Of a stretch of DNA of 64,000 bases, positions 31,475 to 39,373 are shown piece by piece. Every line of letters starts with the position of its first letter. Position 1 is the stretch's first letter. The notes beneath the pieces are model-generated. The model saw nothing but the letters and a program-made list of their open reading frames with translations, had not been told where the DNA came from and did no database searches. The translations under genes were made by a program, and so were the position numbers. Source of the DNA: Aminivibrio pyruvatiphilus (GTDB lineage Bacteria; Synergistota; Synergistia; Synergistales; Aminobacteriaceae); assembly GCF_004366815.1 (NCBI RefSeq), contig NZ_SORI01000017.1, positions 1-64,000 on the forward strand. Reading direction: 5' to 3'.

Positions 31475-31551
31475 GCGCCGGTAGCTCAGATGGATAGAGC
31501 GGCGGTCTACGGAACCGCAGGTCACGAGTTCGAATCTTGTCCGGCGCGCCA
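31475..31551 (+). tRNA. tRNA-Arg (ACG anticodon)
   Basis: A 77-nt cloverleaf with acceptor GCGCCGG / CCGGCGC and encoded CCA. The anticodon arm GCGGT-CTACGGA-ACCGC gives ACG, whose first A is normally deaminated to inosine by TadA to read CGU, CGC and CGA. A TadA domain is encoded in this window at 37754. Confidence 0.96.
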
Positions 31552-35756: not shown

Positions 35757-36211
35757 TCACCGACACCCTGGACAGGCTCGGCGCCTATTATTGCCTCGGC
35801 GGCAGCCTCGGCAGGGCCCTTGAGTTTCTTGCGTCCCGGCCCCTGGATGCCCTTCCGGAAGGCCGGACGGACATCGACGGGGACGATGCCTTTTTGCTCG
35901 TCCAGTCGAGAGAAACCCGGCCCTCCTCCGAGGAACCCTTCGAGACCCACAGGAAGTATGCCGACATCCATATCACCCTGGAGGGAGAGGAGTGGATGGG
36001 CTATGCCCCTGAAGCGGACCTCGAACCTCTGTCCGGGTATTCCTCGGAAAAGGACTGCCGGACTTATTCCGGAGACGGCGTTTTCTTTCGGGGAGGGCCC
36101 GACAGGTTTTTTCTCTTCTTTCCCTGGGACGGTCATAAGGGCTGCATCTCCATGGGGGCCGGCGGCCGGGTTCGGAAAATAGTGGTCAAGGCGGCCCTTG
36201 AAGGAAGGTGA
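35753..36211 (+). CDS. YhcH/YjgK/YiaL (DUF386) family protein
   Basis: 152 residues. The family motifs are readable: FETHRKYADIHITLEGEEWMGYAP, then FLFFPWDGHKGCI with the conserved His and a downstream VRKIVVKAAL. The cupin-like fold carries a metal site in this family (related to EbgC), and members are linked to sialic acid and other sugar metabolism. The His/Asp residues for metal binding (HRKYADIH) are present. It is coupled by 4-base overlaps to the ATPase and to the nitrilase gene. Confidence 0.88.
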   Translation: MITDTLDRLGAYYCLGGSLGRALEFLASRPLDALPEGRTDIDGDDAFLLVQSRETRPSSEEPFETHRKYADIHITLEGEEWMGYAPEADLEPLSGYSSEKDCRTYSGDGVFFRGGPDRFFLFFPWDGHKGCISMGAGGRVRKIVVKAALEGR

Positions 36212-37761
36212 AAGCCCTGAAGATCGGGTGTGTTCAGCCCCGCGCCCTTGACGTGCCGGAGTGGAAAGAAGCCCTTGAACGGGCTCTGGAACTGGCGGAC
36301 GAGGCCGTTGCGGGGGGCGCGGAACTCGTCCTTCTGCCGGAGGCCCTTTTCCCGGCCTATTACCTCGGCGGCGGTGAGAAATCCGCGGCATCGTGGCGGA
36401 AGGCAGACCCCCGGGCGCTTTTCTCCGGCTTTGCCGCAGAACGGCGAATTTATCTCGCGGCAGGGCTCGTTCTGCAGGAAAGGGAAGCCCTGTACAACGG
36501 GGCGATCCTCTGGGGACCGGACGGACGGGAACTGCTGCGGACCTTCAAGTCGAACCTCTGGCATTTCGACGGACGGTATGTCCTGCCGGGAAGCTCCTTT
36601 CCCGTGGCGGAAACGGAATTCGGCCCGGTGGGCATGATGGTGTGCGCTGACGGGCGGATTCCCGAAATCAGCCGTATCCTCGCCCTGAAGGGGGCGAAAA
36701 TGATCCTTGACCTGACAAACCTGACTTCCACGGGACGAAACAGGGATACCCTGTCCAATCCCCAGCTCGAGTACATGCTGCCCGCCAGGGCGGCGGAGAA
36801 CGGGGTCTGGATCGCCGTGGCCGACAAGGTGGGCCTCGAGGCTGAAACCGTGCTGAACTGCGGCGGCAGCCGCCTGATCGATCCGCTGGGAAACGTGGTG
36901 GCGTCCCTTGGTTCGTCAGAGGAAGGGGTTCTGGTGGCCGAGGCCGGCCTTGAAGCGCCCCGCCCGCCGATGCCCGGACGGACACCGAAACTCTATTCCA
37001 TTCTCACGGCGGACACGGTTTCCACCGGAGCCTACCTCGCCCAGTTCGACCCCCTGTCCGCTTCCGATGACGAGGTTTTTGCCGCCCTGTGCCGTTTTCG
37101 AGCTGCCGGCATGGAGGAATATCTCGAAAAGGCGTCCCGTTTTCTTGTGAGGGCGGCGGACCAGGGCAACAGGCTGGTCTGTCTCCCTCCCATGGAGGAG
37201 GAAGGCTGCAGCCGGGCTGCGGAAAAGCTGTCGGGCTTCCTGTCGGGAAGCGGTGTGGTCGCCGTCCTGAACGGTCCGGCGGGGAAGGGGAGGGAAACCG
37301 TCGTCTTTTCCTCCGATGGTATCATCGGCAGGTTTCGGGGGGAAGGTTTTGAGCCCCTGGATACACCTGCCGGAAGAATCGGGGCTGTATGGGGGGACGA
37401 CGGCTGGAACCCCGAACCTGCCCGCTGCATGATGCTCGGAGGAGCCGAAGTGGTGGTATGGTACGGGGACGGGAAGCGTCCCCGGGAGATATCCGTAAGA
37501 GTTGCCCGCACCAGGGCCGCGGAGAACAGGATTTTCCTGCTGTATTTCCACGGCTGGGGGGATGCCCTTGCCGCGGGGCCTTCCGGTGCGGTGCTGGCGG
37601 AGGCCCTTGATAAAGGAGACCAGGCTGTGTCCGCCATGATCCGGAGATCGGAAAGCCGCGGAAAAACAGTGGTGCCCGGGACGAACATTGTTTCCGGCAG
37701 GCTGCCCTCCGTCTATGGAGACCTTGTCTCCGCTGACGGTGATACCGGCTCTCATGAATGA
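36208..37761 (+). CDS. Tandem carbon-nitrogen hydrolase (nitrilase superfamily)
   Basis: 517 residues from a GTG start. The first half (1-270) is a complete CN-hydrolase domain with catalytic Glu45 (LLPEALFPA), Lys114 (TFKSNLWHFDG) and Cys146 (MMVCADGRIPE). The second half (about 285-505) repeats the fold with VCLPPMEEEG and IGAVWGDDGWNPEPA, but the catalytic Cys position is Gly, so it looks catalytically dead. The enzyme probably hydrolyses an amide or nitrile, or transfers the group. It starts 4 bases inside the YhcH gene and overlaps the tadA start by 8 bases. Confidence 0.85.
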   Translation: MKALKIGCVQPRALDVPEWKEALERALELADEAVAGGAELVLLPEALFPAYYLGGGEKSAASWRKADPRALFSGFAAERRIYLAAGLVLQEREALYNGAILWGPDGRELLRTFKSNLWHFDGRYVLPGSSFPVAETEFGPVGMMVCADGRIPEISRILALKGAKMILDLTNLTSTGRNRDTLSNPQLEYMLPARAAENGVWIAVADKVGLEAETVLNCGGSRLIDPLGNVVASLGSSEEGVLVAEAGLEAPRPPMPGRTPKLYSILTADTVSTGAYLAQFDPLSASDDEVFAALCRFRAAGMEEYLEKASRFLVRAADQGNRLVCLPPMEEEGCSRAAEKLSGFLSGSGVVAVLNGPAGKGRETVVFSSDGIIGRFRGEGFEPLDTPAGRIGAVWGDDGWNPEPARCMMLGGAEVVVWYGDGKRPREISVRVARTRAAENRIFLLYFHGWGDALAAGPSGAVLAEALDKGDQAVSAMIRRSESRGKTVVPGTNIVSGRLPSVYGDLVSADGDTGSHE

Positions 37762-39373
37762 CAGGGATGAACGGTTCATGGCCCTGGCCCTTGAAGAAGC
37801 GCGCGTCGCGGCCCGGCGGGGAGACGTTCCCATCGCGGCCTTGGTGGTGCGGGACGGAGAGGTGCTTTCCACGGGAAGCAACCGGAAAGAAAAGGATCCG
37901 ACCGCCCATGCGGAAATCCTGGCCCTTCGGGGAGCTGCGGAGGCCGTGGGGACATGGAACCTCCGGGGGTGCACCCTCTACGTCACCGTGGAACCATGCC
38001 CCATGTGCGCAGGTGCGCTCGTTCTTGCCAGGGTGGACCGTCTCGTCTACGGATGCGCCGATCCCAGGGCCGGGGCGTGCGGCACCCTGTACGACATCGT
38101 CAGGGATTCGAGGCTCAATCACCGGTGCGCTGTCCGGAGCGGGGTTCTTGAGAGGGAGTGTGCCCGGCTCCTCACGGACTATTTCCTTGAACGCAGAAAG
38201 AGCCGCCTTGCACGCGGCGGGGAAGAAAGGGTGAAGGAAATGAAATTTCTGTCCTACGGCCATCAGTATATCGATGAGGAAGATATCCGGGCCGTCGCGG
38301 AGGTGCTCAGGGGTGACTGGCTCACCCAGGGGCCGTCGGTGGACGCTTTTGAGAAAGCCTTCGCGGAGTATGTGGGGACCCGCCATGCGGTGGCCTTCGC
38401 CAACGGTACGGCGGCCCTCCACGGGGCCTATTTCGCGGCGGGAGTGGGGCCGGGAGACGAAGTGGTCACTTCTCCCATGACCTTTGCTGCCACCAGCAAC
38501 GCCGCCCTCTATCTCGGGGGATCCGTGCGCTTTGCGGACATGGACCCGGCTACCCTCTGCCTTGACCCCGGGAAGGCAAAGGAAAAGATTACTTCCAGGA
38601 CAAAAGTGATCGCCCCCGTGAGTTTCGCGGGATATCCGGCCGATATGGCCGCCTTCCGGGAAGCGGCGGCAGAGTGCGGCGCCGTCCTTGTGGAGGACGC
38701 CTGCCACGCCCTCGGAGCGAAGAGGGGAAGGACCCCCGTGGGAAAGGAAGCTGACCTGACCGCCTTCAGCTTCCACCCGGTGAAGCACATCACCACCGGC
38801 GAGGGCGGCATGGTCACCACCGACTCGGACGAATATGCCGAACGGCTGCGGCTTTTCCGCACCCACGGCATCACGAAGGACCCGTCGAAAATGGAAGGGG
38901 AGCCCGACGGGCCGTGGTCTACGGAGATGCAGGCCCTCGGCTTCAACTACAGGCTGAGCGACATCCACGCAGCCCTCGGGCTGAGCCAGATGAAGAAGCT
39001 CGACCGGTTCGTGAGCCGGAGAAAGGAGATCGCATCCCTGTATGACGGCCTTTTCTCTTCGGTACGGGGCCTGGAAATCCCTCCCCGCCACGAGGGGCAT
39101 GCCTACCACCTCTATCCCCTCCGGGTACCTGCGGAACGGCGGAAGGAATTTATCCTGAAGCTGAAGGAGAGAGGCATCGGGGGAATGGTTCACTACCCGC
39201 CGGTGCACCTGCATCCCTACTACAGGAAGAATTTCGGCTGGAAGCAGGGTGATTTTCCCGCCGCGGAGACCTTCTATTCCAGGGAGATAAGCCTTCCCAT
39301 GTTTTACGGGCTGTCCGACGACGACGTCGCACGAGTGGCGGAGGAAATCCGCCGCATCGCCGACGCCGGGTGA
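37754..39373 (+). CDS. TadA-PseC fusion: tRNA adenosine deaminase and sugar aminotransferase in one frame
   Basis: 539 residues read without a stop. Residues 1-160 are a full TadA deaminase with zinc and catalytic residues His52, Glu54 (TAHAEILAL) and Cys82, Cys85 (PCPMCAGA). After a basic linker (RKSRLARGGEERVKE), residues 163-539 are a DegT-family aminotransferase of PseC type: WLTQGPSVDAFEKAF, PLP lysine 344 in SFHPVKHITTGEGGM, and NYRLSDIHAALG. PseC makes the 4-amino sugar of pseudaminic acid. An internal ATG at 38240, with aaagggtg upstream, could also initiate PseC separately. A lost stop codon or frameshift is an alternative explanation. Confidence 0.85.
   Translation: MNDRDERFMALALEEARVAARRGDVPIAALVVRDGEVLSTGSNRKEKDPTAHAEILALRGAAEAVGTWNLRGCTLYVTVEPCPMCAGALVLARVDRLVYGCADPRAGACGTLYDIVRDSRLNHRCAVRSGVLERECARLLTDYFLERRKSRLARGGEERVKEMKFLSYGHQYIDEEDIRAVAEVLRGDWLTQGPSVDAFEKAFAEYVGTRHAVAFANGTAALHGAYFAAGVGPGDEVVTSPMTFAATSNAALYLGGSVRFADMDPATLCLDPGKAKEKITSRTKVIAPVSFAGYPADMAAFREAAAECGAVLVEDACHALGAKRGRTPVGKEADLTAFSFHPVKHITTGEGGMVTTDSDEYAERLRLFRTHGITKDPSKMEGEPDGPWSTEMQALGFNYRLSDIHAALGLSQMKKLDRFVSRRKEIASLYDGLFSSVRGLEIPPRHEGHAYHLYPLRVPAERRKEFILKLKERGIGGMVHYPPVHLHPYYRKNFGWKQGDFPAAETFYSREISLPMFYGLSDDDVARVAEEIRRIADAG

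Follow-up and report, generated by a model that had tools for sequence, protein, structure and literature searches.

Adjacent genes of an operon can fuse by loss of a stop codon or by a change of frame, and many of the fusions that are retained unite enzymes of one pathway. Overlapping operon gene pairs are known as translationally coupled systems (PMC10666635, PMC12548453), with termination-reinitiation being the usual mode of coupling when two genes lie very close together (PMC10666635). In the window analysed here, a stretch of 64,000 nucleotides from contig NZ_SORI01000017.1 of Aminivibrio pyruvatiphilus (genome G000 below), adjacent tadA and pseC genes of the same strand are joined in frame without rearrangement, in the manner of operon-gene fusions. 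The tadA-pseC pairs of the relatives, with overlaps of -4 nt (ATGA) or very short spacing, resemble coupled operon pairs; here, by contrast, the upstream stop is missing while the Shine-Dalgarno (SD) sequence has been kept, as in a coupled pair that has since changed. Unlike the partners in many retained fusions, TadA and PseC share, to our knowledge, no pathway. The features of the locus are given below in window coordinates.

36208–37761, + strand: nitrilase-family (carbon-nitrogen hydrolase) gene, the upstream neighbour, whose stop overlaps the tadA start (8 nt)
37754–39373, + strand: TadA + PseC-family fusion frame, ATG at 37754, TGA at 39371–39373, 539 codons, no internal stops
37754–38206, + strand: TadA (tRNA adenosine-34 deaminase) half, residues 1–151; Pfam MafB19-deam/dCMP_cyt_deam_1, NF008113
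38207–38239, + strand: linker of ~11 residues, 152–162 (LARGGEERVKE), from the codon table of three species
38222–38224, + strand: seam codon, GAA in G000 and G002, TAA (stop) in G001
38225–38239, + strand: SD-like pseC ribosome-binding region GAAAGGGTGAAGGAA, 15 nt identical in G000, G001 and G002
38232–38234, + strand: TGA lying in the +1 frame 8 nt ahead of pseC (-8), relic of the ancestral tadA stop
38240–39373, + strand: PseC-family (DegT/DnrJ/EryC1/StrS) aminotransferase, 377 aa plus stop; Pfam PF01041 (409 bits), TIGR03588

The initial annotation described two full-length enzymes read through one stop-free frame, and this description is borne out by the 539 codons and by the scores on both family models. 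Residues 4–154 of the fusion match the TadA model NF008113 with 150.2 bits (cut-off 150), and the zinc/catalytic motifs HxE and PCxxC are both present (H52-A-E54 and P81-C82-P-M-C85). Thus, with its full domain, its zinc motifs and a score at the NCBIfam cut-off, the N-terminal half is, by its sequence, a complete TadA, predicted to act as an A34 deaminase; it differs from known TadA in having a second enzyme attached at its C-terminus. The separate TadA protein of G001 scores 153.2 on the same model, and the solved relatives of this half are 7cph, 2b3j and 1z3a. Matches to the TadA model at E ≤ 1e-25 come from one locus of the genome only, namely the fusion. Since this sole tadA has no stop of its own, the TadA of the cell should be the fusion protein, unless it is cleaved. 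A backup TadA was sought in the deaminase-fold match that ranks second in the genome (C4), and this was set aside, as it looks dCMP-deaminase-like by eye. The substrate of TadA, tRNA-Arg(acg), is encoded at 31475–31551 (+ strand), 6.2 kb upstream of tadA. This tRNA gene lies near tadA in G004 too and is found on the corresponding contig in G002.

The aminotransferase half (residues 163–539) is likewise complete by domain. Residues 165–535 match the PseC model TIGR03588 with 467.8 bits (cut-off 423.5), the PLP-binding lysine is K344, located in SFHPVKH (pattern SFHPxKH) within SFHPVKHITTGEGG, and the ATG at 38240 lines up with the starts of stand-alone pseC genes. Solved relatives are 2fn6, which we take to be PseC of H. 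pylori, and ArnB (1mdo). In its full domain, PLP lysine and score above the cut-off this half resembles known PseC; unlike known PseC it is an orphan, in a genome having neither PseB nor PseI above the cut-off. The best PseB match in the genome reaches 199.9 against a cut-off of 407.75 and is a 620-aa CapD-type protein, while the match of the PseI model (266.8 against 340.25) is a NeuB (460.2 against 399.65). A PseB match at E ≤ 1e-90 was found in none of the five genomes sampled from the genus (G000, this one, to G004), all of which have a PseC-family enzyme; adjacent pseB-pseC pairs occur in other Synergistota, e.g. G048, G178 and G179. The pseudaminic-acid synthesis originally attributed to this half finds no support: the enzyme is of the PseC family, but in the absence of PseB and PseI above the cut-offs the pseudaminic-acid label is unproven and the sugar substrate uncertain, and the genes for nonulosonic acid in this genome (LegB-, LegC-, NeuC-, NeuB-, NeuD- and PseF-like) are of the legionaminic/sialic type and sit on a different contig. 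This cluster, which also has a WbuX-type amidotransferase, adjoins a flagellin-like gene at L163 (contig C14, 33000–48000), a neighbourhood that suggests flagellin glycosylation. It is possible that the substrate of the PseC-family enzyme comes from the CapD-type 4,6-dehydratase on contig C38, and in this genus the enzyme may serve another 4-keto sugar. Nothing relevant to an orphan PseC was found in the literature.

Both halves are under purifying selection of a similar level, dN/dS being 0.08–0.11 in the tadA half and in the pseC half for every pair among three close species. An OmpH/Skp-like gene comes after pseC, and the locus is a compact run of same-strand genes, in which the nitrilase-family gene and tadA presumably belong to one transcription unit. 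The protein encoded at 36208–37761 itself contains two CN_hydrolase stretches, i.e. tandem domains. In the AlphaFold model of the fusion the seam (residues 154–161) has a pLDDT below 50 and the PseC half is confident; the TadA half is modelled poorly because no more than three relatives were aligned there, so the model says little on the packing of the domains.

Comparison with the relatives is most informative with regard to the seam. G002, a second species of the genus, has the same open frame (538 aligned residues, 91% identity, ~11% DNA divergence), so that the absence of a stop extends beyond this assembly. In G001 (JAHDLC010000008.1, a Synergistaceae MAG), which is also 91% identical, tadA is in the frame of pseC and the seam codon is TAA. 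In nine further genomes from four genera (G003, G004 and seven from three other genera) tadA immediately precedes pseC but is not in its frame, the tadA stop falling anywhere from 43 nt before to ~30 nt past the pseC start; G004 and G021 show the classical ATGA overlap (-4 nt). A single alignment over both halves was obtained in three of 188 Synergistota genomes (G000, G001 and G002), with the frame open in two of the three and no other TadA-PseC fusion among the 188. The long PseC frame of G016, examined as a candidate, proved to be an ordinary 395-aa gene. Among the best 80 loci from a scan of the genome collection, those outside Synergistota miss the catalytic part of TadA, although fusions may still occur in other phyla beyond these loci. 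Nothing relevant to TadA fusions was found in the literature. As the missing stop comes down to one base, GAA versus TAA, an assembly or sequencing error might be invoked; given that the independently assembled and ~11% diverged G002 is also open with GAA, the chance of such an error is next to negligible.

The linker exists as first described, but its length is ~11 residues (152–162) rather than 12–15. Its codons 152–156 vary among the three close species at about half of the positions, altering the amino acids, and nine variable sites fall in the 24 nt at 38199–38222, compared with no substitution in the 17 nt at 38226–38242. Such a lack of change in the SD stretch is no more than moderately unusual, as 113 of 1601 windows of 17 nt are invariant too. 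The ATG noted inside the frame at 38240 is correct and is likewise unchanged in G000, G001 and G002; the SD-like stretch preceding it is 38225–38239. In G001, where the frame stops at the seam codon, GAAAGGGTGAAGGAA is untranslated, and hence it is kept there as a ribosome-binding site and not as a linker. The anti-SD duplex at the internal start (-8.9 kcal/mol) is comparable with that at the start of tadA itself (-8.7 kcal/mol), and -8.9 kcal/mol is reached by seven of 201 other internal in-frame ATGs in chosen genes of the window. The +1-frame TGA reported just before the ATG is indeed there (38232–38234). The stop of tadA in G003 and G036 is a TGA situated 8 nt ahead of the pseC start, and the same TGA is present out of the TadA frame in G000–G002; it therefore reads as the old tadA stop. 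A GCCGC/GCGGC inverted repeat with a variable loop (38202–38220), which precedes the SD in G000, G001, G002 and G004, was considered as a hairpin candidate and rejected, because it folds like its shuffles (z = 0.12, -1.13, 0.05 and -1.31, respectively).

The initial annotation offered three explanations: a genuine bifunctional protein, a pair of cistrons sharing a frame with the second initiated internally, and a recent stop-loss. The second and third fit best when taken jointly. Relatives with a stop or with separate genes are what the annotation itself named as refuting evidence, and their existence speaks against an old dedicated bifunctional protein. We give a probability of roughly 78% to the reading that a translationally coupled ancestral tadA-pseC pair turned into one open frame, with the pseC start retained; it builds on the observed frames and stops, the relatives, the conserved start region and the single tadA. 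In the ancestor shared by the three sister species, a frame shift of net one base within the variable end of tadA would have moved TadA off its old stop, the TGA at -8, and brought it in frame with pseC. The TAA at the seam would then have disappeared in the line of G000 and G002 or arisen in G001. The tree of the tadA-pseC pair joins G001 with G002 (86/91) and the tree of the 8.5-kb region joins G000 with G002 (90/93); since the two conflict, either order is compatible with the data. With no stop after TadA, ribosomes would run on into PseC, and TadA would be made solely as the 539-residue TadA-PseC protein; with the SD and the ATG at 38240, PseC would additionally be started by itself.

As the upstream stop is missing, termination-reinitiation is impossible here, and read-through and internal initiation remain. 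The internal start might thus be a decayed relic, with PseC made via read-through only and the fusion being the sole source of both activities, their cooperation unselected. Such decay would agree with the loss of the usual mode of coupling of close pairs (PMC10666635), which the open frame rules out, and with an SD weaker than that of five out-of-frame relatives (-8.9 versus -10.4 to -13.0 kcal/mol). However, the SD and the ATG are the same as in G001, whose stop requires them to work, and a decayed start seems unlikely. PseC alone is probably still made by internal initiation beside the read-through fusion.

A fusion selected as a bifunctional enzyme, physically coupling tRNA wobble editing with nucleotide-sugar amination, could be argued from a frame that stays open in two species whose proteins are 91% identical and from the adjacency of tadA and pseC retained in at least four genera. 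Nevertheless, the comparison of relatives speaks against a genuine bifunctional protein: a conserved fusion is expected to have a stop-free junction across close relatives, yet the sister species G001 has a TAA at the seam, the two genes have different frames in G003 and G004, and every other adjacent tadA-pseC pair checked is separate and out of frame. Furthermore, the residues of the seam vary freely and its conserved portion is the ribosome-binding site, a PseB/PseI partner above the cut-off is absent from the genome, and we know of no substrate or pathway common to the two reactions, which also counts against such an enzyme. We therefore regard this explanation as quite improbable, and a lineage-selected TadA-PseC, bifunctional or cross-regulated, that ties tRNA-Arg wobble editing to surface-sugar synthesis as highly improbable. 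What does count against the preferred reading of a merged coupled pair is that the frame is open in two species ~11% apart, so that a maintained fusion is conceivable. Under that preferred reading, the fusion would be tolerated since each domain would fold on its own, with a flexible linker between them, and biochemical cooperation between the halves is presumably absent.

The data lend no support to a functional connection of tRNA editing with pseudaminic acid, and the locus has little bearing on a new pathway link; rather, it warns against taking this fusion as evidence of a functional association. For the most part it appears to be a commonplace accident among closely packed genes. What it offers is a gene fusion in progress, seen among a few related species as separate out-of-frame genes, as an in-frame pair with a stop and as a fully open frame, in which the former tadA stop can still be recognised in another frame. 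It would also provide a natural case of a cell whose only TadA is made solely with another enzyme at its C-terminus. The TadA-PseC merger is thus a fresh example of a process already familiar in evolution, and the obligate C-terminal fusion of TadA is a consequence of modest interest.
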